Of a DNA stretch of 64,000 nucleotides, positions 10,083 through 29,500 are shown piece after piece. A model generated the notes under the pieces. It did not search any database and was not told the origin of the DNA. It worked only from the letters and a program-made list of their open reading frames with translations. Both the position numbers and the translations under genes were made by a program. Each line of letters starts with the position of its first letter. Position 1 is the stretch's first letter. Source of the DNA: Ruminiclostridium cellulolyticum H10 (GTDB lineage Bacteria; Bacillota; Clostridia; Acetivibrionales; DSM-1351); assembly GCF_000022065.1 (NCBI RefSeq), contig NC_011898.1, forward strand, positions 2,782,501-2,846,500, in the 5' to 3' direction.

Positions 10083-11213
10083 CTATATTTTGTTAACCAA
10101 CTCTATTTCCGAGTACTTTTCAAGGATTGATTCCGAAAATTCCCCAATGCTTTGTGCATCCTTTGAATTAGATATATTGAACAAAATTTGATTCTGTGAA
10201 TTTAATACAGCTTTAAGTTCCTCAATATCTTTACTTGAAACATTAAAGTATTTAAGCCCTCTATGTAAGTACGATTCCGGCATGTTTAATTTAACATTAG
10301 CCACGTTCAAGCAATCAACGTCGTACCCGAATTTATGCTTAATTGAAGTATTAACATCTTCAAATAAACTATTATCATATTCATCATAGTAGACACTTAA
10401 AATACATACATCAGGTCGAACTGCACAAGAAACCATATACGCCAATATTCCAAAATCCTGAACAAACAGGTCGTTTAAAGGAATAATGCCTCCCGGAATC
10501 CCAATTATGAAAAGATCTGGCTTTTCATCCTTTTCAATGCTTTTTACATAATTATTAAAACAAACAACTTTTTGTGTTTCAGACATGGTTTTGTCAAACA
10601 TAAAATCAGGAAATGAATTAAAACCTGCACATTCACAATACTGTCTTGTACCTATCTGACTTACCTTATATCCTTTTTCCAGATAATACTTGCGTAGTGC
10701 CAATTGAATATCGAATTTATTAGTTTTCTCTCCCGTACCTAAAATAAAAATAACGGGAATATCAATAGTTTGAATAGTAATGATTGATTCTTCAATAAAC
10801 TTTTTATAAAACTTTTGAGATGATTCATTTTTATAATAACTGAACTTTACTCCCTCATAATTGCATAAGGTTTTAAGCTCAAGTTCTATATGCTCTTCCA
10901 AGGGTATAAGGCATATAATATCTTTCTTCTTATGAATACTCTCAAGTATTTTGGGATAAATATACTTATTAAAATCAAGTGGCAAGCTATAATCGCAAAA
11001 AACCACACAGTCACAGTCCTCCAGCTCGCTTTCAAAACATGACTTTACCGTTATCCCTATGTATTCTCCGTCATCAGCCCGGCTTGCATCTTTGTCTTTC
11101 ATTCCCCAACCACCCGGAGCAACTAATCTGAATTCTTTAAAATCCAGACTTCCATACCTTAAAAAAGGTGTAAACTGCCTGTTATAAGGATATACCAAAC
11201 CTACATTTCCCAT
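10083..11213 (-). CDS. RiPP maturation system protein with P-loop-like motif
   Basis: A 376-residue protein starting at ATG 11213 behind a GGAGG site, 14 nt after the radical SAM gene, so they are translationally linked. The N-terminal half opens with GNVGLVYPYNRQF. From about residue 155, FILGTGEKTNKFDIQLALR resembles the nucleotide-binding loop of DUF1611/dethiobiotin-synthetase-like P-loop proteins (GTGxxTNK). Cys-rich patches (QYCECAG near 190) may bind metal. From memory this corresponds to the TIGR04066 'peptide maturation system' family that co-occurs with Clo7bot peptides; its reaction is not known to me. A role in ATP-dependent processing or as a partner of the maturase is inference. 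Confidence 0.6.
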   Translation of the reverse strand: MGNVGLVYPYNRQFTPFLRYGSLDFKEFRLVAPGGWGMKDKDASRADDGEYIGITVKSCFESELEDCDCVVFCDYSLPLDFNKYIYPKILESIHKKKDIICLIPLEEHIELELKTLCNYEGVKFSYYKNESSQKFYKKFIEESIITIQTIDIPVIFILGTGEKTNKFDIQLALRKYYLEKGYKVSQIGTRQYCECAGFNSFPDFMFDKTMSETQKVVCFNNYVKSIEKDEKPDLFIIGIPGGIIPLNDLFVQDFGILAYMVSCAVRPDVCILSVYYDEYDNSLFEDVNTSIKHKFGYDVDCLNVANVKLNMPESYLHRGLKYFNVSSKDIEELKAVLNSQNQILFNISNSKDAQSIGEFSESILEKYSEIELVNKI

Positions 11214-11227
11214 CTTCCGCCTCCTGA

Positions 11228-12616
11228 TTAGTTAAAATTCACACCAATCTCCTTTAGTACACATATATCCTTTAGTCTGCCTTCAACATCAGCTTTTACC
11301 GAATTGCAATATGAGAGCTTTTGTTTGCCCGACAACTCTTTTAAATTGTCACATGAAACCATGCACAAGGAACAATAACGTATGGCCCAGCAATTTTTAC
11401 ATTTTTCCTCAGTCAGCTTTCCGATATTTAATAAAATTCTGACTTTGTCTATATCAATTCCTCTATCAATATGGCCGATTTTTACGACTTCTGATTCCTC
11501 GCTGACACGTTCACATGGATAAAATGTTCCGTCTACACTCATAAATAAGCGTTGAGAGCCCGGGATACACGGCCCTCCATGATGATATTTATCAGGCAGT
11601 GATTCTGTTATTTCCATCTGTTCGTTGAACATCTTTTCCAACATATTAAATCTGGAAGTAACTAATGGTGATACTTTTTCAGAATCAAAACGATTTATCT
11701 GTGAAAGAAATAATTTAAAAAACTCGTATCCCCTTTTTATGAAGTAATCTTCGGATATTTCAACATTCTCTTTCCTGTAGAACATATTTATTTCACTTGC
11801 ATTAATAATTGCATCCTGTATAACCTCATTTCCTGAGAGAAACTGACTTGTACAATTGTAGTCATTCTCAGGGTCGGCTACAACATTAAATATTACCTTA
11901 CTGAAATAATCCGGGTAGTTTTCCTTAATCTTCGTTATATTGCTGATAACTGTATCAAATGAACCGGAGTTATCCGCATATACTCTATTCTTATCGTGTA
12001 TATCCTTGGGTCCATCCAGACTTATCATAAGTACAACATCATTTTGATAAAAATACTCTATTATTTCCCTTGTAATTATGGTTCCATTAGTAGTGATGCT
12101 GAAATTAACATGCTTTCCTTCAAATTTAGTTTTAGCGTATTCTATGGATTCTTTTATTAAATCAAATTCGATGATCGGCTCTCCACCATAAAAACCTATG
12201 TTTACATAATCACAGTCAATGGAATGTTCCCATAGAAAATCAATGCCTCTTATGGCCATTTCTAAACTCATTTTTCTGTTTGAGTGTTGGCGGTTATTAT
12301 ATTTACCAGAGTATGGACAATATGTACATCGTAAATTGCACGCCTGTGTCACCTGAATAGTTATCATATTGATTTTATTGTTCAGATGGTATTCAAGAAA
12401 TTTGTCTTCAGGATGTATTATAGTCTCGACATGCTTGTCCGATAAAAAACCCTTTTCTATAAGGGACTGTACTTTGGGATGCTCCATATCATTTTTGTTT
12501 AATGCATCAGCTAATTCCTCTGATATGCCTATAATTGAATTTTTGTTTACATCATAAAAATATTTGCTCCCATTAGTTTCGAACATATGAATAAATGGCT
12601 GGTATTCTTTACACAT
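11228..12616 (-). CDS. Radical SAM/SPASM peptide maturase
   Basis: A 462-residue radical SAM enzyme. The N-terminal 80 residues (FIHMFETNGSKYFYDVN) look like the small substrate-peptide-binding region seen in SCIFF and related maturases. The cluster motif is C93-NLR-C97-TY-C100, followed by GFYGGEP (SAM binding). The C-terminal SPASM part contains PC, YPC and CKNCWAIRYCSLCMVSC, enough Cys for two auxiliary iron-sulfur clusters. Such enzymes form Cys thioether crosslinks in RiPP precursors. It is the first gene of the operon, behind the promoter at 12699, and the Cys-rich peptide two genes on is the likely substrate. Confidence 0.85.
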   Translation of the reverse strand: MCKEYQPFIHMFETNGSKYFYDVNKNSIIGISEELADALNKNDMEHPKVQSLIEKGFLSDKHVETIIHPEDKFLEYHLNNKINMITIQVTQACNLRCTYCPYSGKYNNRQHSNRKMSLEMAIRGIDFLWEHSIDCDYVNIGFYGGEPIIEFDLIKESIEYAKTKFEGKHVNFSITTNGTIITREIIEYFYQNDVVLMISLDGPKDIHDKNRVYADNSGSFDTVISNITKIKENYPDYFSKVIFNVVADPENDYNCTSQFLSGNEVIQDAIINASEINMFYRKENVEISEDYFIKRGYEFFKLFLSQINRFDSEKVSPLVTSRFNMLEKMFNEQMEITESLPDKYHHGGPCIPGSQRLFMSVDGTFYPCERVSEESEVVKIGHIDRGIDIDKVRILLNIGKLTEEKCKNCWAIRYCSLCMVSCDNLKELSGKQKLSYCNSVKADVEGRLKDICVLKEIGVNFN

Positions 12617-12930: not shown

Positions 12931-13731
12931 TTATGCAGCCAAGAGCCTAAGTCTGTATTGAGCAGGACTCAGCCATCCTAGTTTCTCTTTAATTCTTTGC
13001 TCGTTATAATACTTTATGTATCGTTCTATTGCATTTTTTAAGTCCTCGTAGCTGTAGTACACAACTCCATAGTATATCTCTTGTTTTAGCAGACCAAAGA
13101 AGTTTTCCATTACTGAATTATCATGGCAGTTACCTTTTCTAGACATACTTTGAAAAATCCGTTCTTCTTTGAGACGATGTGAGTATACTTTCATCTGATA
13201 AGCCCAACCTTGATCTGAATGGAATGTTCTTCTATAAGGACAATCAGATGTGATTTCAATAGCTTTATTAAGTGCACTCATAATATTTACTGCAGATGGA
13301 TGTTTATCAATACCGAAACTTACTATTTCACTATTGTACATATCCATAAAAGGATCCAGGTAAAGCTTATGCATTGTCATATGTCCCTTGGAATCAACTT
13401 CGTAGTATTTAAACTCTGTTGTATCAGTTGTAATCTTCTGGTGTGGAATATGAGTATTGAAACGTCTACGGATTCTGTTAGGTGCAACTGTTCCAACTTT
13501 TCCCTTATAAGAACTGTACTTGCGACTTTTTCTGGTAAAAGAAGTAACTTGAAGACTAAGCTTTTGCATAATTCGCTGTACTTTCTTCTTGTTTACTATA
13601 AATTCTTGATTCCTGAGTTCACCATACATACGACGATATCCATAATTCTTATTATTCTCATGAATCTCCAATATCTTATCTTCCAGTTCTTTGTCTGGAT
13701 TCTCTCTATCAAATCTTTTCTGCCAATACAT
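12931..13731 (-). CDS. IS3-type transposase OrfB, DDE integrase core
   Basis: 266 residues from the first Met, but the frame is open further upstream (KAARIVYSLRGDFKLKDILA before Met), so it is normally made as an OrfAB fusion by a -1 shift at AAAAAG (13815-13820, minus strand). HTH_21-like region NYGYRRMYGEL, then the rve/DDE core: TTDTTEF, HSDQGW, and NFFGLLKQE with N-rich spacing (CHDNSVMENF). All three acidic residues are present, so it may be active. It ends with the usual YNxxRIKEKLGWLSPAQYR block. Confidence 0.9.
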   Translation of the reverse strand: MYWQKRFDRENPDKELEDKILEIHENNKNYGYRRMYGELRNQEFIVNKKKVQRIMQKLSLQVTSFTRKSRKYSSYKGKVGTVAPNRIRRRFNTHIPHQKITTDTTEFKYYEVDSKGHMTMHKLYLDPFMDMYNSEIVSFGIDKHPSAVNIMSALNKAIEITSDCPYRRTFHSDQGWAYQMKVYSHRLKEERIFQSMSRKGNCHDNSVMENFFGLLKQEIYYGVVYYSYEDLKNAIERYIKYYNEQRIKEKLGWLSPAQYRLRLLAA

Positions 13732-13772
13732 ATATGTTGCTTTAGGAAAGCCTACTACTGCGAGAATGTCTT

Positions 13773-14369
13773 TTAGTTTGAAATCTCCTCGGAGGCTGTA
13801 GACGATTCTCGCTGCTTTTTCAGAAGAGTTTCCTCCTCTAAACGCAGCCTCCTCAGTTCTTTTAAATAGGCATTCTCTATACGTAACTTTAAAAGTTCAT
13901 CTTCAAGCTGTTTAACATATTCAGCACTAGTATCAACAATAATTGATTCAGTTGCATTGGTATCTGTTACTTTTCTTTTTAGGCTCAATGGTTTCTTCCG
14001 ACCTTTCTTCTTAGGTCTCAAAGCATCCGGACCAGCAATCCGAAAATCGTTCACCCACTTAACAATCAGTGCAGGATTACGAATTCCTTCTTGAATAGCT
14101 AACTCTTGATATGAAACCTCACTTGTTAAATATAATTCTACAACATGAAGTTTATATTCGAAAGAGTATTTTTTTTGTTTGCGAGAACGCACCAAACCTT
14201 CGTCGCCAAAAGCATTATAATTAAGGACCCATTTCTTAATGTTGTTAAACGAGGGGATATCATACTGCTTTGCAAGATACTCGTATCCTCCTTCTCCATT
14301 TAGATAGGCTTTTACAATTTGTTTCTTAAATTCAAAAGAATATTTAGCCATAAAAATACCGACCTCCAA
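13773..14369 (-). CDS. IS3-type OrfA, DNA-binding part of the transposase
   Basis: 198 residues with two helix-turn-helix units (about 1-55, and 60-110: YSFEYKLHVVELYLTSEVSY) typical of IS150-type OrfA. A Leu/Ile heptad region (about 145-185: VKQLEDELLKLRIENAYLKE) works as a leucine zipper for multimerisation. OrfA binds the terminal repeats. The start lies just inside the 14406 end of the element. Near its end, CTGAAAAAGCAG offers the slippery site that leads to OrfB. Confidence 0.88.
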   Translation of the reverse strand: MEVGIFMAKYSFEFKKQIVKAYLNGEGGYEYLAKQYDIPSFNNIKKWVLNYNAFGDEGLVRSRKQKKYSFEYKLHVVELYLTSEVSYQELAIQEGIRNPALIVKWVNDFRIAGPDALRPKKKGRKKPLSLKRKVTDTNATESIIVDTSAEYVKQLEDELLKLRIENAYLKELRRLRLEEETLLKKQRESSTASEEISN

Positions 14370-14458: not shown

Positions 14459-15262
14459 TTAATTTGAGTATTTACAATCCTCTTTAAGTATTTCAATACA
14501 CTCATCAAGTCCTTTTCCTTCATGTATTATCATACTTATAAGTTTAATAAGCAAGCCCGGATTATTATACTCAAAAATATTCCTTCCTATGGCCACTCCC
14601 GCTGCTCCTGCCAAAATTGAGTTATTTACCATGTTAAGCAGCTTTTCAGGATTGTTCATATTTTCACCACCTGCTATTAGCACAGGAATTTGAACATTCT
14701 TCACCAGCTCGCTTATTTCTTCCATAGTTTCAGGACACTCAACCTTTACAATGTCAGCCCCAAGCTCTTCTGCAAGACGGGCAGTGTGTGCGATATCCCC
14801 TGGTTTTCTTTGGTTTCTCTTAGCATATACCATGGCAAGCAGAGGCATCCCCCATCTTACGCAGGACTCGGATACTTTGCCAAAATCCTTGAGCATAGAG
14901 CTCTCATCTGTGTCCCCAAGATTAACGTGAATTGAAACCGCCTCAGCCCCCAATTGCACTGCTTCTTCAACAGAGCCTACAAGCACCTTACAATGGGAAT
15001 CATTATTGAATTTTGTCGAAGCTGATAGATGTAGTATGTAATTTCCATCCAAAAAAATTTCATCCTTACAAAGTCTTGTTAATATACCCTTATGAAGAAC
15101 AATCCCATCTGCACCACCACTTATAATCTGCCCTATGAGTTTTCTGTAATCTCCGAGACCTGTAATGGGCCCCAATGTCACTCCATGATCAATTGGAACA
15201 ATACATGTCTTTTTGCATGAAGGTTTAATCAGCCGTGCCAATCTTAAGGCTTTACCATCCAT
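14459..15262 (-). CDS. DeoC-type aldolase, GriI/ADH-synthase homologue
   Basis: A 267-residue TIM-barrel class I aldolase of the archaeal-AroA'/GriI type. Features include PIDHGVTLGP near the start (DHG loop), VSIHVNLGD, DIVKVECP (likely Schiff-base Lys) and AGAAGVAIGRNIF (phosphate loop). Family members join aspartate semialdehyde to a C3 or C6 sugar-phosphate-derived unit: 2-amino-3,7-dideoxyheptulosonate in archaeal aromatic synthesis, or the C7 precursor of 3-amino-4-hydroxybenzoate (GriI). The next upstream gene is the matching cyclase, so the pair most likely makes 3-amino-4-hydroxybenzoate for the NRPS/PKS product. It is the last gene of the operon; ATG with GGGAG upstream. The GriI role is by family and context. 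Confidence 0.8.
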   Translation of the reverse strand: MDGKALRLARLIKPSCKKTCIVPIDHGVTLGPITGLGDYRKLIGQIISGGADGIVLHKGILTRLCKDEIFLDGNYILHLSASTKFNNDSHCKVLVGSVEEAVQLGAEAVSIHVNLGDTDESSMLKDFGKVSESCVRWGMPLLAMVYAKRNQRKPGDIAHTARLAEELGADIVKVECPETMEEISELVKNVQIPVLIAGGENMNNPEKLLNMVNNSILAGAAGVAIGRNIFEYNNPGLLIKLISMIIHEGKGLDECIEILKEDCKYSN

Positions 15263-15314: not shown

Positions 15315-16412
15315 TTACTTTTCCTGAATTGACTCATCAATTTTCAAGCCTACATGCCTGCCACCTTGGCATACATATGTAAGGAGTTCTTCACCTTCCT
15401 TTATTGTTGAAGCATTCCTGACCTCTCCATCGGCTCCGAAAATCCTTATATGCCAATCATCCTGTACCATCGTATTAATACGCTTTCCATCCACCTCAAC
15501 CTCAATCTTTAATAATGGCCTTTTCTCTACTTTTACCCTTCCGACCACTACCTCCCTTGTGTTGCCTAAAGTATCCACACACAGCAGTTTACTTCCGCCC
15601 TTTAATTCCGTAATGTACGAGGTTTCACCTTCGGGTGCCCATACATAGGAATGTACGGCACCTGCATTAACTCTGAAGGGACGTAGTTCCATATATGGTA
15701 GGAAGTGAGTTTCTGAACTGACCAAAAGCCCCCCTTCTGAAGTTGAGCCGATGAGCATTCCTTCATTTTCTTTCAATAGTCCGGTGGTGTCTATACATGC
15801 CCTGTAGCCAATTCCAATATGCAACACCTCGGTAACCCTACCTTTAGCCAGCTGAATTTTAGATGTTCCCATTTTTTCTATAAATGTGTTTACTTTGATT
15901 ATTTCACTATGATCCTCATTACTGAACACAACCCCATCGCTGCCCACTTCCATTACCCCGAAAGCCAACTCCATATCTTGGCAGCTGTTAACTATTTTTA
16001 AGACCTTGGTATTTTGGGATTGGAGCTTTGCTACCAGCAGTTCCAAGGGTATATTTGTTGTGTCAGAAAATTCTGCTACAACATAGTCGAAATTTGAACC
16101 AGCCTGCCATGCTTCATCCATACTGTTTCTATCAAATATCCGGTGTAAAAGGGCGGTCTTGAAACCTTTTTGAACTGATTTCTGCAGTAACTGCCTATCC
16201 GCTGACAAAACTATGTGCTCCTTGTTTAAATCCTCCATGTCTTCTTCGCTATTTATTTCAATAATCAGATTCATTTTATGTGGTGGTGTTATGGTATCCA
16301 ACATACCCCTTTTAATTAGTAAGTTCTCAAAATTTAGGATATAAATCATATTTAAAATAGCTTCTTCGTTTTTTAAATTCCTACCATCAAACCAAATCAT
16401 ATCTTTTTTCAT
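15315..16412 (-). CDS. 3-dehydroquinate synthase II family enzyme, GriH homologue
   Basis: I choose ATG 16412 (residue 23 of the longest frame), because AAGGGG lies 8 nt upstream and the longer form would overlap the carrier protein gene; the product has 365 residues. MKKDMIWFDGRN opens the NAD-binding part, and the C-terminal half (GSTSEGGLLVSSETHF, RPFRVNAGAVHSYV, CQGGRHVGLKI) is diagnostic of archaeal-type dehydroquinate synthase II/GriH. AroB' cyclises the aldolase product to dehydroquinate; GriH converts it to 3-amino-4-hydroxybenzoate. Pairing with the GriI-type aldolase and the lack of other shikimate genes favour the second role. It lies in the middle of the operon's tail. Confidence 0.8.
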   Translation of the reverse strand: MKKDMIWFDGRNLKNEEAILNMIYILNFENLLIKRGMLDTITPPHKMNLIIEINSEEDMEDLNKEHIVLSADRQLLQKSVQKGFKTALLHRIFDRNSMDEAWQAGSNFDYVVAEFSDTTNIPLELLVAKLQSQNTKVLKIVNSCQDMELAFGVMEVGSDGVVFSNEDHSEIIKVNTFIEKMGTSKIQLAKGRVTEVLHIGIGYRACIDTTGLLKENEGMLIGSTSEGGLLVSSETHFLPYMELRPFRVNAGAVHSYVWAPEGETSYITELKGGSKLLCVDTLGNTREVVVGRVKVEKRPLLKIEVEVDGKRINTMVQDDWHIRIFGADGEVRNASTIKEGEELLTYVCQGGRHVGLKIDESIQEK

Positions 16413-16461
16413 AATTTTAACCCCTTGTAAATGTTGTTTTTTAGCACCTGTTTTCGAAATA

Positions 16462-16716
16462 TCATATTTTGCTTTCAACGTAGTCCACGATATCTCTTAT
16501 AGTAGAAAACTTGGCAAAGTCAAGATGCTCATTATCAAATTCAAACCCAAATTCATTTTCAAGCATCACCACTAATTTTACAAATTCTACCGAATTCAAA
16601 CCAAACGTAGCCAAAGTCTCATCCACTCTGATATTATCGGCAATATCCGAAGCCTTGTAATTTTCCTTTATAACCTTTTTTAATCTCGTTTCCACCATTT
16701 CTGACATAACCCTCAT
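16462..16716 (-). CDS. Free acyl/aryl carrier protein
   Basis: 84 residues forming a four-helix carrier protein with FGLNSVEFVKLVV; Ser42 is the phosphopantetheine site. The start may be residue 1 or residue 4 (ATG ATG-spaced; AAAGGA lies 2 or 11 nt upstream). It lies between the last PKS and the GriH/GriI pair. It may carry the aryl amine, serve as a partner for the terminal BtrH-like domain, or carry a starter unit made elsewhere. None of these can be chosen from sequence. Confidence 0.85.
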   Translation of the reverse strand: MRVMSEMVETRLKKVIKENYKASDIADNIRVDETLATFGLNSVEFVKLVVMLENEFGFEFDNEHLDFAKFSTIRDIVDYVESKI

Positions 16717-16774: not shown

Positions 16775-19700
16775 CTATATTATGGATATATTCTTTAGTG
16801 CTTCAAAAAACTCATCACTGGTTTTACTTATGTTATTAATATTGTTAACTACCGTATTATCAAGTTTTATACTCCTCCCCCTTATCAAACTGGCAGCACA
16901 GATATTAATCAAAGCATTTGATGTCTCCAATATATCGTTGGACATACCTATAAGCTCTTTATGCTCTTTATCAAAGAAGTCTTTGAGTGTGCTGATTAAC
17001 AATTCCTTGCTTCCAAGAAAAAAGTACAACTTATTTAGTCCCTCAGCATCAAGTTGCTTGTCATCACTTGTCATAATATTTCTGATAAAGATTAAATCTT
17101 CGCTCTGCAGTTCATTTTGCGAAATATATTCCAATAATCCGGTTATCTTATTTGTAATCCCACCAATACCCACATCCTGATGCTTTTCCATTACAAGTAT
17201 TTCCATACCATTTGTGTTAGAGTAAATTTGTTCCAAAATATCAAAAGTGGTATAAAACCGTCCATAATCTATAATCTTTTCTCCATTTTGCATCAGGTGG
17301 TTGTAATCTATAACGGAATATAACCTTTTACTACTATCATAACCGTTAATCACAGCAAGATGGTTGGTGTGTTTGCTTAAATAGAAGGAAGAGTAGAATG
17401 TAAAGTATTCGTCAAAACAAACCAAAATAGGCTTGCCTTTATCTATATAGCTGCAGATTGTTGTATGTAAACCTTCCAAAGTACGAACCTTCTTTACACT
17501 AGCTCTTAAACCAAAGCTTTCAAGAAGTTGGTTCTCTACAAGATTACCGTTATAAAAGGTTTGTTTACTGTAAATATCTCCTAAATATCCCTCTAGATTA
17601 AAACATCTCTTTATACCAAGAAATAATTTGAACAGTCTTAACAATTCTTTGTTCTGCTGCCCTAGCAGTAGTCCAAAGCCTCTGTCCAGGCAATTCATTT
17701 GCCGCCACATTAATCCGCTGATCTGATTGACTATGGATTCCTCAATTTCTATTTTACCTATTTGTGGTAAAATATTTACCGTTGCTGCACGTTCCGTACG
17801 TACTTCTACATTATCCCCGTCATTCACCGAGATTTTCTCTCTAGCCGACTCAGGATACTTTTCACTGATAAACATAGCCAAATCGACAATGCTGAAATGT
17901 TCAAATAAATTATTTATATCAATTTCAACATTTAACTGTTCTTTAAGTTTACTTGCCATATTTATGGATAACAACGAGTTTCCGCCCAAATCATAGAAAT
18001 CATCGTGAATGCTGAGCTCACCTATTTCCAGAATGGCCCCCCATATGTTCCCTATTAGCTTTTCAAGCTTGGTATAGTTTCCGGACACTCCCCCTTTGAG
18101 TTTAACAGTGGGTAATGGACTCTCTTTTACAGAAATTAAGCTATTACTACTTACTGTACTTTCCAATTCAGCTGCTATATCCTTTTCAAGCTTGAAAAGC
18201 TGTATATCTTCTGATATACCAGACAGCATCTCGAAATCAAGTTCCCCTGCAATTACATGGGTTGATTCGGATTCTAAAATAAGCTCAAAATCACTTAATG
18301 CCTGCTCTACGGAAATCGGTTTAAATAAGGATTTGTTTTTATCCGCCTTGTATTCAGCAGCCATCCCGGTATCCTTCCATGCCGGCCAACTAATGGATAC
18401 AGTCCTTTTTCCCTGAGTACTTCTCCACTGTGCAAATGAGTCCATAAATGCATTTGCTGCTGCGTAATCCCCCTGACCGGGTACGTTTAGTATAGACATT
18501 ACCGAGGAAAATGTAACGAAAAAGTCAATTTCATCCTCCCTTGTAACATTATCCAGCATGAAGGTACCCTCTATTTTGGGAGACAACACTTTGCTTAAAT
18601 CAGCTTGTGACTTACCTGAAATAAGGCCTTCTCCGGCTAATCCCGCACAATGGATTATTCCATTGATATTATTGAATTTATCCCTTATTTCATTAATAAC
18701 ACCCATCATCTGATCCTTTACCGATATATCCCCTGGATAGCTAAAAACAGCCGTTCCATCAGCTTCAATACTATTTATTGCATTAATTCTTTGGCATAAT
18801 TTTGTATCAGCACCCGCTTTAAGAATTTCCGCCCATTCATGACGTTCAGGCATAGAGCTGCGATTTACCAGTGCTATATTTCCTGCCCCTTTTTGGGATA
18901 GATGTCTTGCAATTTCAAGGCCTATCCCACCAAGGCCTCCTGTAATTATGTAAACACCTTGACTTTTAATATCAATCCCTTTTCGGCTACCACCGCCCAT
19001 TTCCAATCTTGCAAACTCCTGAATGTACCTTTTTCCATCTCTAATTGCAGTCAAATACGATGTATTGTACCCATACACCTCACTGACAAGGCTGTTGGCA
19101 TCTGTGTCTGTATCAATGTCAACACCTCTGCACCTTATATTCTCGTATTCCGCAGATATTACCCTGCCCAGAGCAAATAATGCGGCATTGCCGGGATTGG
19201 CTTTTTTCTCCTGCTTGTCAACGCTGAAAGTATTCCGGCTTACCAATACCATCTCTACTGACTGCCCGGATTTCAGCTTCGCAAAACTTTTTACCATATA
19301 AAACAAACTGTATACGCCTGTTATATGGCTCAATTCAAGTTCTTCAGGACTATCTCCGTATTGTTTACTTCTATTGCCAAACAGATGGATTATTTTTGAT
19401 ATCCTCCTGTCACCCATATCTTCAAAAAGCTTATAATAATCTCTTTCGCATCCTGATATGGTATAGCTCAGTTCATTCTTTTTTTCATAGGATTCCCCAA
19501 GCATTACTTGAATAACATCTATTCCCTTGTCCGTCAGATTAGAGGCTAGACCTTCGCCAATGCCTTCAGCATCCATGAATATAGCTACTGTTTTATTTGT
19601 CAGGTTCATACTGCTTTTTGGTGCTTCGGTACATGGTACCCATCTGATTTCGTAAAGATTGTGTTTGTTTTTTTCCGGCGTAACCGCCTTTGTTTTCTCT

Positions 19701-21649
19701 CCTTTTTCGTTGTCTATCCAATACCTGTTTCTCTCAAAAGGATATGGAGGCAGATGAACTGTTCTGCCCCCTGTACCCTCATAAAACTTATTCCAGTCAA
19801 CATCTGCACCTATAGTATAAAGCCTGCATAATTCTTCTAATTCATGAACTTCGCCCTGCAAAAATGCCTTCAACTTTAAATCTGCTTTCTGTGATATTTC
19901 CCTTCTCTCGTGCTCTGTTATATCATTTGCTTCATTCAAGCCTTTTTTTGAAGATACTATCTTGTGTTCACCAAAATAAATATTCTGTACATGAGTTTGT
20001 TTTATGTCAATTACTTCCCTAAGTTGAATAAGCTTTTCCCTTAGCTCGTCCATACCTCTTACAATAATGGCTGCCCTGTAATTATAATGTCCCCTGCCCA
20101 CGGCTGTAGTGCTGCAAATATCCTTCAAAGAAGGCACTTCCGGCCTGTTGATAAATTTCAAATATCTTTGTACCAGCTCTTTCATAGAAAATTGGCTTTT
20201 AGCCGAGAGTGTAAAAACCATAGGTCTGTGGGATGCTGTCTCTGCTCTAATTTCCTTTTTTACTTCCTGTATAACCACATGGCAGTTTGTACCACTGAAG
20301 CCAAAGGAACTCACTCCGCATAGTCTTATATTCTGGTCTGCTTCCCAAAACGTCGTCTTGTCATTTACATAAACAGGTGCATTACTAAAATCTATATACC
20401 TGTTTGGATATTCAAAATTCAAGGTAGGCGGAATAACTTTTTTATTAATTGCTAAAACGGTTTTAATAAGCGATGCAATTCCAGAGGCACCTACCAGATG
20501 GCCCAAATTTGTTTTTACCGATCCAATTCCGCAAAATTGATTTTTTTTTGTAAACTTCCTGAAGGCTCTGCTTAAACCCTTAATCTCAATGGGATCCCCC
20601 AGAACAGTACCTGTTCCGTGGGTCTCAATATATGAAATATTTTCTGGATTTATCCGTGCTTCCTTCCAAGCCTTTATCAGCAAATCTTCCTGTGCTTCTG
20701 CCTTTGGAGCTGTAATCCCGTTTGATGCACCGTCATTATTAACAGCACTTCCCTTGATAACCGCATAGATTTCGTCCTTGTCCTCCATTGCCTTTTTCAA
20801 GGGTTTCAGTATTACAACACCTACTCCCTCTCCCCAGACGGTACCACTGGCCTTATCATCAAAAGCTCTGATGGTGCTGTCATTGGATTCTACAATCCCC
20901 ATCTCATTATTTTCAATGGGCTTGTAGATTATATGTATACCTCCGGCAATTGCCATCTGACATTTACCTGTTTTTAAAGCATTACAGGCTTCATGAACAG
21001 CTACCAGCCCCGAGGAACATGCAGTATCAATAACCAATGCCGGACCATTGAGGTTTAAAATATAGGATATTCTGCTTGCCAGGATTCCTGACCAAGAACC
21101 TGTTATAGCCAGCGGATCCCTATCTTGTATCATGTATTTATACGGTGAACCCCAGGTATGGTCATTCCCCGTATATACACCTGTGTTGGAGCCGTAAAGC
21201 CTGTCTCCCCCGTATCCTGCATCCTCTATGGCTTCCCATGCCGTTTCAAGAAATACTCTCTGTATTGGGTCCATATATTTGGCTTCTTTGGGTGAAATAC
21301 GAAAAAATGCGGCATCGAACTTGTCGATTTCTTTTATATATCCTGCCTTGCTGTAGCTACTGTCGGTACCTTCAGTTATTTCTACAGCAAAACTACCTCT
21401 GTCCGGTGGAATTTTGCCGATGCACAGCCTACTGTCCATGAGGTTTTCCCAATATTCCTCAAGATTCTCCGAACCCGGAAACTTGCCTGCCATACCTATA
21501 ATTGCAATTTCATCATTCTCAATATGCTGCTTGTTCTTTTGCAGTTCCGATAACAATACCACAGAATCCTGAGGGTCAAGCTTCTTGTCTGCTACCAGTT
21601 TATATATAATATTGTTAGCCGTTTTCACAGTCTGCACCAATCCCTTCAA
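16775..21649 (-). CDS. Final PKS module KS-KR-ACP with BtrH-like release domain
   Basis: 1624 residues. Short N-terminal helical docking region (1-45). KS at about 46-480 with Cys near 208 (DTACSSG), HGTGT and NLGHL. No AT; the KS-AT linker ends YPFERNRYW. KR with GGLGGIG near 908 and FSSVMSILNVPGQGDYAAAN. No DH is seen, so a beta-hydroxy group is expected. ACP with DLGGNS near 1221. Residues about 1300-1500 resemble the BtrH N-terminal acyltransferase family (C39-like fold): Cys1320 (QMNCLDRGFGLLLG), His1430 (TNHLAVINGYD), Asp1448 (YSVIDYNH), plus DKGKPILVCFDEYF. BtrH moves an acyl group from a carrier protein to an amine. The tail after 1500 is helical. No thioesterase GxSxG is seen. TTG start with a weak RBS; GTG at residue 5 or 8 is possible. 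Confidence 0.85.
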   Translation of the reverse strand: MKGLVQTVKTANNIIYKLVADKKLDPQDSVVLLSELQKNKQHIENDEIAIIGMAGKFPGSENLEEYWENLMDSRLCIGKIPPDRGSFAVEITEGTDSSYSKAGYIKEIDKFDAAFFRISPKEAKYMDPIQRVFLETAWEAIEDAGYGGDRLYGSNTGVYTGNDHTWGSPYKYMIQDRDPLAITGSWSGILASRISYILNLNGPALVIDTACSSGLVAVHEACNALKTGKCQMAIAGGIHIIYKPIENNEMGIVESNDSTIRAFDDKASGTVWGEGVGVVILKPLKKAMEDKDEIYAVIKGSAVNNDGASNGITAPKAEAQEDLLIKAWKEARINPENISYIETHGTGTVLGDPIEIKGLSRAFRKFTKKNQFCGIGSVKTNLGHLVGASGIASLIKTVLAINKKVIPPTLNFEYPNRYIDFSNAPVYVNDKTTFWEADQNIRLCGVSSFGFSGTNCHVVIQEVKKEIRAETASHRPMVFTLSAKSQFSMKELVQRYLKFINRPEVPSLKDICSTTAVGRGHYNYRAAIIVRGMDELREKLIQLREVIDIKQTHVQNIYFGEHKIVSSKKGLNEANDITEHERREISQKADLKLKAFLQGEVHELEELCRLYTIGADVDWNKFYEGTGGRTVHLPPYPFERNRYWIDNEKGEKTKAVTPEKNKHNLYEIRWVPCTEAPKSSMNLTNKTVAIFMDAEGIGEGLASNLTDKGIDVIQVMLGESYEKKNELSYTISGCERDYYKLFEDMGDRRISKIIHLFGNRSKQYGDSPEELELSHITGVYSLFYMVKSFAKLKSGQSVEMVLVSRNTFSVDKQEKKANPGNAALFALGRVISAEYENIRCRGVDIDTDTDANSLVSEVYGYNTSYLTAIRDGKRYIQEFARLEMGGGSRKGIDIKSQGVYIITGGLGGIGLEIARHLSQKGAGNIALVNRSSMPERHEWAEILKAGADTKLCQRINAINSIEADGTAVFSYPGDISVKDQMMGVINEIRDKFNNINGIIHCAGLAGEGLISGKSQADLSKVLSPKIEGTFMLDNVTREDEIDFFVTFSSVMSILNVPGQGDYAAANAFMDSFAQWRSTQGKRTVSISWPAWKDTGMAAEYKADKNKSLFKPISVEQALSDFELILESESTHVIAGELDFEMLSGISEDIQLFKLEKDIAAELESTVSSNSLISVKESPLPTVKLKGGVSGNYTKLEKLIGNIWGAILEIGELSIHDDFYDLGGNSLLSINMASKLKEQLNVEIDINNLFEHFSIVDLAMFISEKYPESAREKISVNDGDNVEVRTERAATVNILPQIGKIEIEESIVNQISGLMWRQMNCLDRGFGLLLGQQNKELLRLFKLFLGIKRCFNLEGYLGDIYSKQTFYNGNLVENQLLESFGLRASVKKVRTLEGLHTTICSYIDKGKPILVCFDEYFTFYSSFYLSKHTNHLAVINGYDSSKRLYSVIDYNHLMQNGEKIIDYGRFYTTFDILEQIYSNTNGMEILVMEKHQDVGIGGITNKITGLLEYISQNELQSEDLIFIRNIMTSDDKQLDAEGLNKLYFFLGSKELLISTLKDFFDKEHKELIGMSNDILETSNALINICAASLIRGRSIKLDNTVVNNINNISKTSDEFFEALKNISII

Positions 21650-21670: not shown

Positions 21671-24600
21671 TTACATTAACCCTTTTGTTTTCATCAATTT
21701 GTCTACTTCTTCAATAGTTATTTCTCCCCTTGAAAGCTGCTGCATTATTTCCTCCATGCCTGCTTCCCCATCCTCTGTCATAATCTGCTGATTTTCAACA
21801 TCCGGCTGAATTTTTTCTTTCCCCGTCCTGCTTTCTATGTATTCGGACATAGCACTTATTGACGGGTAGTTAAAAATATCGGATATATCCACAATTCCGG
21901 GAAACTCTTTCTCTAAATTTTTTAATAGAAGTGTTGCCATTACAGAATCTCCACCCAAATCATTAAAATTATCATATACACTCACTTCCTCAAGTCCCAA
22001 GGCTCCTGCCCATATCCTGGCAACTACGGCTTGCACCGAACTTATCCCTTTATCCTTGCTCCCTTTTATCTTCAGAGGGGTTATTTCCCCTTCCCTTGCT
22101 GTGTTTCTTTGAGAATCTGTGTTACTGCGTACTTTGTATTTATGTATTTTCCCTTGTATTTTATTAGAAAACCTTATGGCTGTGCCTGAGTCCAACAAAG
22201 GAATTGTTTCAAAATCAAGCTGACCTGCAATTATTCTGGTAAGTTTTTTGGCAGTAATTTCTTCAAACATTTGTATTGCGTCAGATGTGGTGGCAGGTAA
22301 AAATACACCCCTAATTTTCCCGTTTATTATACCGTTATCAAAAGCCATTCCTGTTTCCTTCCACGCAGTCCAGTTTATAGAAACAGTTTTTCCTCCTGCT
22401 GTTTTTCTTCGGTAATCTGCAAATGAATCCATAAAAGAGTTTGCCGCCGTATAATCACTCTGCCCTGCTCCCCCGAGTATAGAATTGATTGATGAAAACA
22501 TTATGAAAAAGTCCAGATTATCCTCTTTTGTTAACTTATCTAAAATAAATGTTCCCTGTACCTTTGGCTTTACAACTCTGGTAAATATCTCCATGTCCTT
22601 ACGGATTATAAAACCGTTTCCGGCTATCCCCGCAGCATGGATAACCCCGTTAATCCTTCCGTATTTTCTTCTTATACTACTTAATACGTTTTTCATGTCG
22701 TTTTCATTCGATACGTCGGCACTGTAATACACAACTTGGGATCCACTTTTTTCAATATCCTTTATAAATTCAATCTTTTGGGCCAGCATAGTACCGCTAT
22801 TCTTCTTTAATATTTCATCCCATGCCTCCCTGTCAGGAATATAAGTTCTGGCTATGAGCACCAGAGATACCGGTTTTTTGGCAGACAAATACCCTGCAAA
22901 CTCCCTGCCTATACCTCCGAGCCCTCCCGTTATTATGTATACACCTTTTTCACATATTTCAATTTCTTCCGGCTCAGAATCTTCAAGGTGTACTTCATCC
23001 ATTTCCTGATGGTATCTTTCTCCGTCACGATACGCAATCAAGCTGCAGCTATCTCTTGAATTCAGCTCGGAAACAAGCTTGTTAACCTCAGTTGTTTCAT
23101 CAATATCAATACACCTGCATTTCAGGTTGCCGTATTCCTGCCCTGCAACCGTACAAATACCGGGTATTGTGGCATTATAATAATTGATTCTTCTTTCCAT
23201 GCCTGTCACCATATTTACGTAATCTGAAACAGCTATCAGCTCTACTTCGTTGCGTATCTTGTTACTAATTAATGACCTGATAAGGTATACAAGACTGTAT
23301 AAGCCTCTTTTCTGTGTTTCGGCAAGAGAATCACTGTCTTCCGGCAGCTTTTCCCAACCGATTGATGACAGATGGATTATTTGTGAAATACCTTCTTCAC
23401 GCAAATCCTTGATAAGCCTGTCATAGTCCTCCTCACCATACCCAATACTGTATCTTCCTGTGGCGAATTTTTCATAACATCCGCAAATATCGACCTCAAC
23501 TACATCGACTCCCAGGGTTTCTTTTATATCCATCCAGAGACTTCCCCGGTCCTTAAACAGCAAAACCTTTCCTGCTGCAGGCTTATACGCATTGTGTATG
23601 GACTCAACTCCCTTTGTGGTGTAGTTCTTAATCCAATTCATACGATGGAACATATTCACTTTTACTGATTTGTAATCAGGAGTAGTAAGCAGCTGATTTA
23701 CTTTTTTCAGAGTATAGTTTTCTATGTCTGCAAATACCCTGCCTTTTTCATCCATTAGAATTATGTCAAAAGAGGCAGTTTCCATGTTCAAATCTGCTTT
23801 TCCCTTTTGTCTGATAAGGCTGTACAGCTTATCCGGCATTTTTCCATATATTATCAGGCTTTTATATGACCAGGGAAGGTAAAGCCCTTCTCCTATACTT
23901 CCTATTGCAACATTTACCGCACTATCCATAAGTGCCGGATGAATTATACATTTGTCCAAATCCCCTGTAAATTCGTCCGGCAGCACCAAATATGCCAGTA
24001 CTCCATCATGTAACGTATAAACTTTTTTCAGGTTGTTCCATCTGGGCCCTGTATCAATAAGGCCCTTTCTTTTCCCTGTCAGTTCAATATCTTCTTCAAA
24101 TATAGCGCTACGTGCCATTTCATCCGGATTGTACTGGACTGAATTTCTATCTTCATCTAAAAATACTTTTCCTTGTACATGCCTAACCCATTTGTCTCCA
24201 TCCGGCCTGCTTGCAACATAAAAGCCTAAATATCCGTCCTCAATTTTCAGTACCGTCTGTACATCTCTTGCCTCATTTTCTCCCACAGCTAAAGGAAATT
24301 CAAAAATGATATCTCTGAATTCCAGATTCTCATAATACTTGTAATGCCCAACGGCCTCACTGACCATCTCGATATAACTTGTTCCCGGTACTATAAAGTT
24401 GCCGTTTACCTTATGCTCATTCAAAACCCAGTGCCTATTCACCTGAAAGTTGGTGCTGTATACGGCACCCTCCATTGTCTCTGTGCTACATGAATCCAGC
24501 AATGGGTATCCGAGTTTATTATAGCTTTGTTCGTATGCGTTTATTTCCGCTGCCTTTGGCGTATTCGCAGTCAGCCAGCAACGCAGCCGTTCAAAAGGAT

Positions 24601-26512
24601 AAGTTGGAAGACTTACTTTTTTCATACCTTTCCCGTCATAAACTTTATCCCATTGTATGTGGTCACCGCTTATATACGATTTGCATATTTCGTCCAGATG
24701 TTTGTTGTAAATGTCCCCTGAAGCTGATGTCAAATCAGGCAGGGTGTCAGCTTCAGGAGTCAGATTTTCAAAAGTGGATATTCCCGGATGGTCAGTGGCA
24801 TATTCTTTTGCAGAATATATACACTTTGTGTCAATATTGTATTTAATTGAGCCTGTGAGAAATGCAAGCTTTTGTTTTAAATCCTTTATATCAGTTGTAA
24901 TAATTGCGATTCTTACAGGGAAATGCGTCCTCCCCGTATTTGCGGTATAACATATATCCTCTAAAGTTACATTTTTAATATTGTCCAACATATGCCTATA
25001 GGCTTCTATATAACTCTGCAAAGCACTTACATGGTTTGCAGAAATTGTAAGTACATTTTTTCTGTATGGGATTATACTTTCCTCTGCCGGATATTGTGGT
25101 TTCTCCGATGAGGGGGCTTCTTCTAAAATCATGTGGCAGTTTGTTCCGCTCAATCCAAAGGAGCTTATCCCGCATCTTCTGGGAAACCCGTCTGTCTCCC
25201 ATTGTGTTAAACGATCATTAATATATACCGGGGATTCCTGTATGTTGGTTTTTCTGTTGGGCCTTTTAAAATGCAGCATAGGAGGTAATTCTTTATTTGT
25301 CAGAGCCATAACCATCTTGATTACACCTGCCATTCCCGATGCATTATCAAGATGACCGATATTTGTCTTTACTGTTCCCAAAGCACAAAACTGCTTTTTG
25401 TCTGTGTACCTCTTAAAAGCCGATTCAATTCCGTCAATTTCTAAGGGGTCGCCCAATTTTGTACCTGTTCCGTGTGCTTCTATATATGAAATTGTTTCTG
25501 GATTCACTCCGGCATCCTTCCATGCCTTTACTATGACCTCCTCCTGTGCGGCGGAGTTGGGAGCGGTAATACCTATAGAGTTTCCATCCTGATTGATGGC
25601 ACTTCCCTTGATTACCGCGTAAACGTTGTCCCTGTCTGCAATCGCCTTCTTCAAAGGCTTTAAAAGTATGGCCGCACAGCCCTCTCCTATTCCGGTTCCA
25701 TCAGAAGAATCATCGAAGGATCTGGCTTTTCCGTCCGAGGATGTTATTCCAATGCCATCCTGCCTGTTGATTTTTAAGGGCAGCAAATTGAGCTTGACCC
25801 CTCCTGCCAGAGCCGTTTCGCATTCTCCGTTCCTTATTGCCCGACAAGCCATGTGTATTGCAACCAGTGATGAGGAACATGCAGTATCCACCAGCATACT
25901 GGGGCCCTTCAAATCAAGATAATAAGATATCCTGCTTGCAATTATAGATTTTATATTCCCCGGTATTGCTATTCCTGATAATCCGGGATCTACTGTATGT
26001 ATAAATCTTTTATAACTTTCACCGAAATCGGAGCTGTAGCCAACGTATACACCCGTTTTGCTTCCTGACAGCCTGCCGTTTCCATATCCTGAATCCTCTA
26101 TAGCCTGATATGCCGTCTGCAGAAATAGTCTCTGATTTGGGTCTATCAGGCTAGCTTCCTTGGGTGATAATTTAAAAAATTTATAATCAAATTTATCTAC
26201 TTCATCAAGGAAAGCACCTATACTATATTCTATTTCTGACGGTTTCAGGTTCATGTGGCCCAGCAGTGCATCTGTGTCCTTTTTCCTTTCCTCCGGAAAA
26301 TCTGATACACAATCCCTTCCATTTCTGATATTTATCCAAAATTCGTCAATATTTGGGGCAAATGGTAATTTTGCTGCCATGCCAACAATTGCTATATCAT
26401 TATCACTCCTGATCTCATCATCTTTTAACAGCCTTATTATTTGGGCCGCAGCCTTTTTACTAATATTGCCGTTTCCTGTGTTTTCAACGATATACTGAAA
26501 TACCCTGTTCAA
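21671..26512 (-). CDS. Trans-AT PKS module KS-DH-KR-ACP
   Basis: 1613 residues from a TTG start behind AAAGGGGG. The N-terminal docking helices (MNRVFQYI, NISKKAAAQIIRLLK) match the helical tail of the PKS-NRPS upstream. KS at about 38-465 (VDTACSSSL near 211, EAHGTGT, NIGHL). A double hot-dog DH near 660-950 with an intact HxxxGxxxxP (EHKVNGNFIVPG, near 699) and HPALMDSAV. KR with GGLGGIG near 1199 and the FSSINSILGGAGQSDYTAAN active-site region. ACP with DLGGDS near 1520. The C-terminal docking tail (EEIMQQLSRGEITIEEVDKL) points to the next KS protein, encoded 21 nt downstream. With no AT it relies on the free transferase at 39547. Expected outcome: an alpha,beta-unsaturated two-carbon extension. 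Confidence 0.92.
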   Translation of the reverse strand: MNRVFQYIVENTGNGNISKKAAAQIIRLLKDDEIRSDNDIAIVGMAAKLPFAPNIDEFWINIRNGRDCVSDFPEERKKDTDALLGHMNLKPSEIEYSIGAFLDEVDKFDYKFFKLSPKEASLIDPNQRLFLQTAYQAIEDSGYGNGRLSGSKTGVYVGYSSDFGESYKRFIHTVDPGLSGIAIPGNIKSIIASRISYYLDLKGPSMLVDTACSSSLVAIHMACRAIRNGECETALAGGVKLNLLPLKINRQDGIGITSSDGKARSFDDSSDGTGIGEGCAAILLKPLKKAIADRDNVYAVIKGSAINQDGNSIGITAPNSAAQEEVIVKAWKDAGVNPETISYIEAHGTGTKLGDPLEIDGIESAFKRYTDKKQFCALGTVKTNIGHLDNASGMAGVIKMVMALTNKELPPMLHFKRPNRKTNIQESPVYINDRLTQWETDGFPRRCGISSFGLSGTNCHMILEEAPSSEKPQYPAEESIIPYRKNVLTISANHVSALQSYIEAYRHMLDNIKNVTLEDICYTANTGRTHFPVRIAIITTDIKDLKQKLAFLTGSIKYNIDTKCIYSAKEYATDHPGISTFENLTPEADTLPDLTSASGDIYNKHLDEICKSYISGDHIQWDKVYDGKGMKKVSLPTYPFERLRCWLTANTPKAAEINAYEQSYNKLGYPLLDSCSTETMEGAVYSTNFQVNRHWVLNEHKVNGNFIVPGTSYIEMVSEAVGHYKYYENLEFRDIIFEFPLAVGENEARDVQTVLKIEDGYLGFYVASRPDGDKWVRHVQGKVFLDEDRNSVQYNPDEMARSAIFEEDIELTGKRKGLIDTGPRWNNLKKVYTLHDGVLAYLVLPDEFTGDLDKCIIHPALMDSAVNVAIGSIGEGLYLPWSYKSLIIYGKMPDKLYSLIRQKGKADLNMETASFDIILMDEKGRVFADIENYTLKKVNQLLTTPDYKSVKVNMFHRMNWIKNYTTKGVESIHNAYKPAAGKVLLFKDRGSLWMDIKETLGVDVVEVDICGCYEKFATGRYSIGYGEEDYDRLIKDLREEGISQIIHLSSIGWEKLPEDSDSLAETQKRGLYSLVYLIRSLISNKIRNEVELIAVSDYVNMVTGMERRINYYNATIPGICTVAGQEYGNLKCRCIDIDETTEVNKLVSELNSRDSCSLIAYRDGERYHQEMDEVHLEDSEPEEIEICEKGVYIITGGLGGIGREFAGYLSAKKPVSLVLIARTYIPDREAWDEILKKNSGTMLAQKIEFIKDIEKSGSQVVYYSADVSNENDMKNVLSSIRRKYGRINGVIHAAGIAGNGFIIRKDMEIFTRVVKPKVQGTFILDKLTKEDNLDFFIMFSSINSILGGAGQSDYTAANSFMDSFADYRRKTAGGKTVSINWTAWKETGMAFDNGIINGKIRGVFLPATTSDAIQMFEEITAKKLTRIIAGQLDFETIPLLDSGTAIRFSNKIQGKIHKYKVRSNTDSQRNTAREGEITPLKIKGSKDKGISSVQAVVARIWAGALGLEEVSVYDNFNDLGGDSVMATLLLKNLEKEFPGIVDISDIFNYPSISAMSEYIESRTGKEKIQPDVENQQIMTEDGEAGMEEIMQQLSRGEITIEEVDKLMKTKGLM

Positions 26513-26554: not shown

Positions 26555-29500
26555 CTAAATATCATCTAATTTTGACAACACTTCATCAATTAATATATCT
26601 CCGCTTTCAAAGCCGTCCAGTAATTTGATAATGTCATCATCACCATCGTCTGAGGTTGGAACAGTAACATTTTCATACTTCTTTTGTTCTGAGCCTTCCA
26701 TAAAGTCTGCCAGCTTTGATATTGTTGGATATTTAAAAATATCAATAACCTTGATTTTTCCGGGATATTTTTCATCAATCATTGAATGCATCTGGTTTAC
26801 CAGAAGAGAATTCCCGCCCAAGGAAAAGAAATTATCTTTGGTGCCCACCTTCTTCATGTCAAGAAGCTGGCTCCATATACCTGCCAGAAATCTTTCCACC
26901 TCAGATTCCGGCACTGCATAATTCTCATTGCTTTGGAAAGGTTCGCCAATATCAAGTGCGGCAAGTGACTTTCGGTCTATCTTCCCGTTTGGTGTCAGTA
27001 TCATCTTTTCCAACCATATAAATTGTGCAGGAATCATATAGTCAGGTAGCTTCTTCTCCAGGCAGCCCCTCAGTTCTTCATAGGTGTGTTCTCTTGGGGC
27101 TGTATAGTAGCAGATAAGTTTACTTGTTTCTCCTGACTTCTTTGCCACTACCGCTGCCTGTATAATTTCTTCATTTTGCAGCAGAACATTTTCAATTTCG
27201 CCTATTTCAATTCTATATCCCCGTACCTTAATCATTCCGTCTTTCCTTCCCAGATACTCTATGGTGCCGTCACTGAGATATCTACCCACATCCCCGGTCC
27301 GATAAATAATACTCCCTTTCTCGCCATAAAGGGTGAAGACCTCCCTTGTTTTTTCCTCGTCCTTGTAATAGCCTCTTGTTACATTTAAACCACTTATATA
27401 GATATCACCCGGAATGCCTATGGGACACATTTTTTTACAAGAATCCAGTATTAAAACTTTGTTGTTGGAGATAGGTTTACCTATGGGTATTACTGTTGAA
27501 CTACCGGGATTATCCCGGACATCATGGCTTGTTACCCAAATAGTCGCTTCTGTAGGGCCGTACATGTTTACTATCCTTGCATGATGAAAATATTCCCGAA
27601 TATCTTTTGCCAGCTCGTAGGTCCACGCTTCACCGCCTATCATAATGCACCTTATACGTGAGAAAAGCTCCTGATTACCAAGGGTTTTCCTGCTCTTGAC
27701 AGCAGTAAGCAGTTGTATCATCAATGCCGGAACAGAATGCCATATGGTGACCTTACCGGCATCTATGTATTCCATGAAAAGAGAGCCATCCTTCATCCTG
27801 CTGTCAGGTACTATGCAAAGACACGTACCGCTTAAAAGAGAGCCGAATATTTCAAATACGGAAATATCAAAACTCATAGAGGTCACTAATGCCATTACAT
27901 CTTTATGGCTCAAACTCATATTTTCAATGCTCCAATTCAGATAGTTGACGGCATTTGCATGAGATACTCCAACTCCCTTTGGAAGCCCTGTGGAGCCTGA
28001 CGTATAAATTATATACATGAGATTTTTAGGGTTGGCTTTATTTTTGAGATTATACGGCGACAGGTTTTTTATATCCTCAGCCGTATACTTTATAAGCCCT
28101 GCTGTTTTGCCTGCTCCTTCGGACAGATTTATAACTACTTCCAGACTATTTTCTTCAGTATTTATCATTTCTGTTTTTTCAAAGGAGCTTTGGTCGATTA
28201 TCAAAAATCTTGTCTGGCTGTGCTTCAGCATATAATGTATTCTGTCTGCCGGATAATCAGGGTCAACAGGTACATATGCCCCTCCTGCCTTTAGTATTCC
28301 CAGCATTCCGATTATCATCTCAATGCTCTTGTGAACCATGATTCCTACCGATTCTTCCCTCTTTATACCTTCATTTTGCAATAACCGAGCAAGCTTGTTC
28401 GCCTTTTCATTCAATTCGTTGTAGGTTATACCTGTACCCTCACACATTACAGCTATAGAATCAGGCCTGAATTCAGCCTGCCTTTCGAAAAGCTCATGGA
28501 CGGTAAGTTTTCCTCTATCACCGAAATCGACATCTGTAGCATTGAAAACACCTTCTATTTTTTCCTTTTCTTCTTTTGTAATTATGTCAATATCTGATAG
28601 AGTAATATCAGGGTTATTCAGAACCTGCTCCAGAATATTCAGGAAATGCAAAGACATTCTTTCCACAGTCTCCCTCATGAATATTTTTGTGCAGTATTCC
28701 AGCCTGAAATGCAGGGTGTTTTCTTTTTCTACAGACTCTAATGTCAAATCAAATTTTGAGGATTTACTGTCAAACTCCCGGGACTTAAATCTCAGTCCCT
28801 CTTCTTCTATCTCAGGAAAGCTTGTGTTTTGCATTATAAACATAACGTCAAATAAAGGACTTCTGCTTAAATCTCTTGGGACATTCAATTTATCTACTAA
28901 TTCCTCAAACTGGTAGTCCTGATTTTCATAAGCATTTAAAGCATTATGGCGTACCTCCTGCAGGAAGTTGTGAAATGTTTTTGTTCCCTCAGGTCTGTTT
29001 CTCATAGCCAGAGTATTGATGAATACACCAAGCATATTTTCCAGATCAGCATTTCCACGCCCGGCTACAGGCATTCCAACAATAATGTCCTCCTGTCCCG
29101 TATACTTATAAAGCAAAACATTAAAAACAGCCAGTAGTGTCATGGAGGCAGTAGTCTTTTCACTGGTTTCAACTTCATGAAGCTTTTTTGACATTTCTTT
29201 ATTTAATTCAAAGTACACTGTGTCTCCTTCATAACTTTGCACAGTTGGTCTTGTATAATCAGCTGGCATATTAAGAACAGGGATATCTCCGCTAAACATG
29301 CCCATCCAGTAGTTTTCCTGCTGTTTATATCTTTCACTGCCGTACAGACTGCTCTTCCAAGAAACATAATCCCTGTACTGTACTGTTAATTCCTTAAGTT
29401 CCTTACCTCTGTATAGCTCTATAAACTCACGTGTAAGAATTCCTAAAGATATACCATCGCAAATAATGTGATGAATATCAAACATAATGGTCTTTCTGCC

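Follow-up and report, generated by a model that had tools for sequence, protein, structure and literature searches.

The CcelD cluster and its last PKS gene

The window analyzed here, 64,000 nucleotides of the genome of the cellulose degrader Ruminiclostridium cellulolyticum H10, holds the downstream part of a large antibiotic-type biosynthetic cluster of polyketide synthases (PKSs) and nonribosomal peptide synthetases (NRPSs), the last PKS gene of which ends in a C-terminal domain resembling BtrH and CtaG. Two published CcelD KS3 primers for reverse transcription-PCR (PMC3250452) match the window exactly at 25819-25883, and the cluster is therefore CcelD of this strain. The last PKS gene is a genuine gene with an intact frame, and Pfam assigned its 1,624-amino-acid product a ketosynthase (KS, residues 46 to 413), a ketoreductase (KR, 898 to 1093), an acyl carrier protein (ACP, 1199 to 1258), and a BtrH_N domain (1370 to 1448). 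The active-site motifs of KS, KR, and ACP are all intact in this module. No thioesterase (TE), reductase, or terminal condensation (C) domain was found by Pfam in this protein downstream of the ACP.

A papain-like domain with a Cys-His-Asp triad

BtrH_N (PF14399) scored 34.3 bits in the whole protein and 36.4 bits for the isolated domain, above the Pfam cut-off of 29.7, over model positions 54 to 133, which make up the His/Asp half. Peptidase_C39_2 (PF13529) was borderline, with 23.9 and 26.4 bits, respectively, at a cut-off of 24. The domain follows an ACP and does not have the setting that marks leader peptidases of the C39 type, namely, a peptide-exporting ABC transporter with a double-glycine leader. 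Nor is it a stand-alone protein of an aminoglycoside cluster, as BtrH proper is, since it is attached to KS-KR-ACP and belongs to an NRPS/PKS cluster.

The conservation of the putative catalytic residues was assessed in an alignment of 22 relatives taken from other genomes and from R. cellulolyticum H10 itself. Cys1320, His1430, and Asp1448 (Table 1) persist as a Cys-His-Asp triad in relatives that share only 15 to 35% identity, so the triad is not a product of chance. CtaG is encoded in the same genome, and although its identity to the domain is 17%, its residues C11, H128, and D144 align with C1320, H1430, and D1448, respectively, which makes the predicted catalytic residues equivalent to the CtaG triad by alignment. 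An AlphaFold2 model of the domain built on the alignment of relatives (pLDDT, 82.5; pTM, 0.83) places Cys1320 at the start of a helix, with neighboring strands carrying His1430 and Asp1448. When this model was compared with the PDB by Foldseek, CtaG was found first (E value, 3e-6; probability, 1.00), followed by AziU2-U3 and CcbD. The matches take in wild-type CtaG and, according to their PDB titles, its C11A, H128A, and D144N variants, as well as CcbD with its peptidyl carrier protein; E values for the papain-like transacylases of the CtaG/CcbD type ranged from 3e-6 to 6e-4 at a probability of 1.00. The PDB matches did not include a structure of BtrH. The assignment of the terminal domain as a cysteine transacylase of the BtrH family is thus well supported by fold and conservation.

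An earlier note on this DNA, made from the sequence alone, had predicted a domain of the BtrH N-terminal family with a C39- or papain-like fold after the last ACP, where it saw no TE, reductase, or C domain, and had named the same three residues as a triad; all of this was supported, the residues lying exactly where they had been placed, and none of the outcomes that the note had named as refuting it was obtained, the proximity of the three residues in space being judged only indirectly. The domain is longer than the note had supposed, occupying about 340 residues (approximately 1285 to 1624) instead of residues 1300 to 1500. The proposed likeness to BtrH held for the family model, whereas the nearest solved structures are those of CtaG, AziU2-U3, and CcbD.

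Comparison with characterized enzymes

CtaG, from closthioamide biosynthesis in R. cellulolyticum, has been described as a peptidyl transferase that moves 4-hydroxybenzoyl between carriers, onto the amine of a second carrier (PMC6772006). It resembles the terminal domain in being the nearest solved structure, in its Cys-His-Asp triad, and in the carrier-bound acyl donor that is predicted for the domain, but it is a stand-alone enzyme of an NRPS-independent pathway, takes a carrier-bound amine as acceptor, and is distant in sequence. CcbD couples a carrier-bound acyl group to an amine, giving an amide, by a ping-pong mechanism with a Cys-His-Glu triad (PMC12945683). The lincosamide condensing enzymes CcbD and LmbD share with the terminal domain the fold and a Cys-His-acid triad and carry out carrier-dependent ping-pong amide formation, yet they are stand-alone proteins with Glu as the third residue and a sugar amine as acceptor. 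BtrH, from butirosin biosynthesis, is comparable in its family model and, as predicted for the domain, in its acyl-ACP donor and the amine-acceptor chemistry proposed for it; it differs in acting as a separate protein on an aminoglycoside, whereas the domain described here is fused behind a PKS ACP.

Two other kinds of cysteine enzyme, the amide synthases of the RifF type (NAT family) and the transglutaminases of the AdmF type, likewise catalyze amide formation on thiotemplated chains. These belong to other families (PF00797 and PF01841), neither of which the terminal domain matches.

Organization of the cluster

CcelD spans approximately 2,796,959 to 2,873,087 of the genome (about 76 kb) and extends upstream beyond the window. 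In order of transcription, it opens with a stand-alone C39/BtrH-like protein, a protein with C, adenylation (A), and thiolation (T) domains (C-A-T) and a second Condensation-family domain, and a beta-lactamase-family protein, followed by an ABC transporter, a PPDK-like enzyme, and a B12-binding radical S-adenosylmethionine (SAM) enzyme. There follow C-[B12-binding]-A-T, KS-KR-ACP, an NRPS, KS-DH-KR-ACP-C (DH, dehydratase), and an AANH protein, and then a four-module NRPS, a discrete acyltransferase (AT), a second B12-binding radical SAM enzyme, and KS-DH-KR-ACP-C-A-T-C-A-T. KS-DH-KR-ACP and, last, KS-KR-ACP-BtrH complete the assembly line, after which come genes for a 3-dehydroquinate synthase II-type enzyme (DHQS-II) and an aldolase. 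The combination of AT-less modules with a discrete AT identifies a trans-AT PKS, in agreement with the earlier reading.

Table 1. Features of the CcelD cluster in the window discussed in the text
Feature	Position	Strand	Properties and evidence
Last PKS gene	16775-21649	-	1,624 aa; KS-KR-ACP followed by a C-terminal domain of ~340 residues
KS of last module with C-terminal linker	20030-21514	-	PF00109/PF02801/PF22621; Cys and both His motifs present
KR of last module	18371-18958	-	PF08659
ACP feeding the terminal domain	17876-18055	-	Residues 1199-1258; PF00550; phosphopantetheine Ser motif GGNS
BtrH/CtaG-like C-terminal domain	16778-17797	-	Residues ~1285-1624; Pfam BtrH_N, AlphaFold2, Foldseek
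Cys1320 codon, predicted nucleophile	17690-17692	-	Cys in 21/21 sequences covering the column; aligns with CtaG C11
His1430 codon, predicted catalytic base	17360-17362	-	His in 22/22; aligned with CtaG H128 (hhalign, MAFFT)
Asp1448 codon, predicted third triad residue	17306-17308	-	Asp in 20, Glu in 2; aligned with CtaG D144
DHQS-II-type enzyme, candidate 3,4-AHBA synthase	15315-16478	-	PF01959, 348 bits
DhnA-type aldolase, candidate partner of 3,4-AHBA synthase	14459-15262	-	PF01791; PRK07226, 289 bits (cut-off, 241)
Penultimate PKS module, KS-DH-KR-ACP	21671-26512	-	Carries the KS3 primer sites
KS-DH-KR-ACP-C-A-T-C-A-T	26555-37651	-	Domain scan
Discrete AT for AT-less modules	39547-40818	-	PF00698; FabD over cut-off
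Four-module NRPS (C-A-T x4)	40819-53409	-	Domain scan
Third A domain of four-module NRPS	44770-46272	-	Thr at Asp235 position (alignment)

A TE elsewhere in the cluster, which would have offered another route of release, was not found, and neither a reductase nor a terminal C domain was detected in the approximately 76 kb. The genome contains only two PF00975 thioesterases, at 776 kb and 3,034 kb, distant from the cluster at 2,797 to 2,873 kb; a free-standing TE may act in trans from outside the cluster.

Several further genes accompany the assembly line. The first gene of the cluster (L076:6095-7087, reverse strand; genome position approximately 2,872,095) lies upstream of the window, at a distance of about 26 kb, and encodes another C39/BtrH-like protein, a stand-alone one that contains the triad motif. 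The AANH/PP-loop protein (53446-54552, reverse strand) shares 22% identity with CtaC, a thioamide synthetase, and the two align at the ATP motif, CxxC, and a distant Cys; its best family, WbuX, scores below cut-off. The CcelD product may carry a thioamide. The two B12-binding radical SAM enzymes are encoded at 37652-39523 and at L075:14272-15948 (both on the reverse strand), and the former scored 775 bits for TIGR03975, a family of radical SAM C-methyltransferases of ribosomally synthesized and posttranslationally modified peptides (RiPPs), at a cut-off of 282. The beta-lactamase-family protein (L076:3-1535, reverse strand) begins with a signal-like sequence, has hydrophobic stretches toward its C terminus, and could be a ClbP-like prodrug peptidase or serve in self-protection. 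IS3-type transposase genes (12931-14369, reverse strand) immediately border the cluster at its aldolase end. Beyond them, at 10083-12616 on the reverse strand, a pair of RiPP maturases, TIGR04066 and CcpM (TIGR04068), both over cut-off, belongs to a separate Cys-rich peptide locus.

A 3,4-AHBA-type gene pair downstream of the terminal domain

The DHQS-II and aldolase genes are located directly downstream of the KS-KR-ACP-BtrH gene, in the adjacent arrangement of the GriI/GriH type. The earlier note had overlooked this pair, which points to a possible amine partner for the terminal domain. Enzymes of the DHQS-II type and DhnA-type aldolases produce 3-amino-4-hydroxybenzoate (3,4-AHBA) in the closoxazole pathway (PMC12118335). 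Because the pair missed the equivalog cut-offs (234.8 versus 750 bits for BagC/FevH and 261.4 versus 299.45 for TIGR01949), 3,4-AHBA is its likely rather than its certain product. A separate, ordinary AroB is encoded in the genome, and the pair is therefore not needed for the shikimate pathway. The closoxazole pathway (ClxE/ClxB; PMC12118335) employs the same kinds of precursor genes as CcelD, but there AMP ligases join the 3,4-AHBA units, and neither a PKS nor a BtrH-like enzyme has been described.

Among 58 genomes of the order, the domain occurs in 10, DHQS-II in 8, and both in 7 (Fisher P = 3e-6, with kinship ignored). The architectures of the relatives were mostly derived from open reading frame lists and Pfam scans. 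The link between the DHQS-II/aldolase genes and this type of terminal domain is kept in three other genomes, the genes adjoining in G019 and lying close in G001 and Acetivibrio straminisolvens (G013; L041). The G019 locus (L004; L023:57-3989) is a cluster remnant in which the assembly line is reduced to KR-ACP-BtrH, DHQS, and aldolase, with identities to the window proteins of 76, 93, and 88%, respectively. In G001 and A. straminisolvens, genes for DH-BtrH, A-T-BtrH, DHQS, and an arylamine N-acetyltransferase-like protein stand in a row, with the aldolase gene approximately 8 to 12 kb away. A stand-alone BtrH-like gene lies near the DHQS/aldolase pair of a different cluster in G024. The linkage is not universal, since no BtrH-like gene was found around the pairs of G032 and G249 among open reading frames of at least 200 amino acids.

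C-terminal fusion of the domain to PKS or NRPS proteins recurs in at least five further clostridial genomes. A-T-BtrH proteins are encoded in G027 (twice), G001, A. straminisolvens, and G029, and G249 has a C-A-T-BtrH protein; a 4,256-amino-acid PKS/NRPS of G022 scored 29.2 bits for BtrH_N, just under the cut-off. Close relatives of the domain found in the window are rare, with two loci in a pattern scan of the genome contigs. The earlier suggestion of an uncommon release domain fused to a trans-AT PKS thus needs amending in one respect: it is not unique to this cluster and is seen repeatedly among the NRPS/PKS clusters of clostridia. Searches of the open-license literature turned up no report in which BtrH had been described as part of a PKS or NRPS, most subscription journals being outside the search.

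In the closest relatives from outside the genus (L005:568-2487, L006:1453-3429, and L041:8894-10964), BtrH is fused not to an ACP but to a domain weakly resembling PKS dehydratases, and the copy at L041:8894-10964 is split over two frames. BtrH-like proteins with an extra C-terminal region occur at L008, L018, and L020, that of L018 weakly matching the ConA-like DUF1349. An NRPS C terminus beside another DHQS/aldolase pair in G027 appeared BtrH-like by eye; it was supported by neither Pfam nor hhalign (probability, 0.8%) and is not counted here.

Proposed mechanism of chain release

The triad, the fold, the position after the last ACP, and the lack of a TE in the cluster lead us to read the terminal domain as a chain release domain. 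It is, in our judgment, probably a cis-fused, papain-like, carrier-protein-dependent transacylase that forms an amide on releasing the chain, the likeliest amine being 3,4-AHBA, either free or bound to a carrier. Cys1320, activated by His1430 and Asp1448, would take the finished β-hydroxyacyl chain from the neighboring ACP as an enzyme thioester, and attack of the amine on this thioester would yield the amide. Acyl transfer, amide product, and the identity of the amine are inferred by analogy with CtaG and CcbD; the adjacent ACP is suggestive of a carrier-bound acyl donor. The amine would be provided by the two genes directly downstream, and 3,4-AHBA is the leading acceptor candidate because these genes are linked to this type of terminal domain across genomes, although as a specific assignment it is tentative.

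Several observations weigh against this proposal. The Foldseek alignments had TM scores of 0.38 to 0.58 and root mean square deviations of 6 to 9 Å, and with such moderate TM scores the likeness to CtaG and CcbD holds at the level of the fold only. A sequence-profile search of the PDB with the 22 relatives gave no meaningful match and found neither CtaG nor CcbD. CcelD was reported to be silent under standard culture (PMC3250452). Finally, the third A domain of the four-module NRPS, which does not have Asp235, may use 3,4-AHBA as an internal unit.

The last of these points leads to the strongest alternative, somewhat less likely than 3,4-AHBA as acceptor: that release does yield an amide, but with another acceptor, such as a polyamine or an amino acid, while 3,4-AHBA is loaded into the chain by the third A domain. 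The building of an aryl amine into a chain has a precedent in albicidin, which contains p-aminobenzoate. The third A domain lies in an internal C-A-T module and so needs a substrate with a nucleophile, but Thr occupies its Asp235 position. It shares 45 to 46% identity with the A domain next to BtrH in the A-T-BtrH proteins of G001 and G029, against 29 to 32% with those other window A domains that were compared. However, it is the gene with the BtrH domain, and not the NRPS gene, that has the 3,4-AHBA-type genes as its neighbors, and the code of the third A domain has so far been matched to no known aryl-amine A domain.

It is unlikely that the terminal domain behaves as a TE, either hydrolyzing the chain or cyclizing it into a macrocycle through one of the chain's own amines or hydroxyls. 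Such a role would fit a cysteine protease fold in the TE position of a cluster where no other release enzyme was found, but CtaG and CcbD, its closest characterized relatives, both couple the acyl group to a second substrate as an amide. Less likely still is a CtaG-like transfer between carriers, in which the chain would be passed to an amine on another carrier and finished there, so that the domain would perform a condensation and not the final release; the ACP-less DH-BtrH proteins encoded beside A-T-BtrH in G001, G013, and G029 are consistent with this, but the window cluster has no module after this one. That the domain is a decayed or noncatalytic leftover, as the reduced G019 locus with its KR-ACP-BtrH fragment and two downstream genes might suggest, is very improbable, given that relatives with as little as about 15% identity retain the triad and that the frame and the module motifs are intact.

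Implications

Amide-forming release by the terminal domain would bring an established transacylase chemistry, acting in cis, to the ends of PKS/NRPS assembly lines, extending the chemistry of CtaG and CcbD from stand-alone enzymes to assembly-line domains. More broadly, and only tentatively, papain-like cis release domains might form a class of their own that replaces thioesterases at the ends of clostridial PKSs and NRPSs, with one lineage capping its product with a 3,4-AHBA amide. Chain release sets the end group and the shape of a polyketide or peptide, and the proposal makes a testable prediction of the end group for the product of a reportedly silent R. cellulolyticum cluster. If it is correct, a fused amide-forming release domain with a recognizable triad would provide a handle for genome mining in anaerobes and possibly an engineering part for amide end groups.
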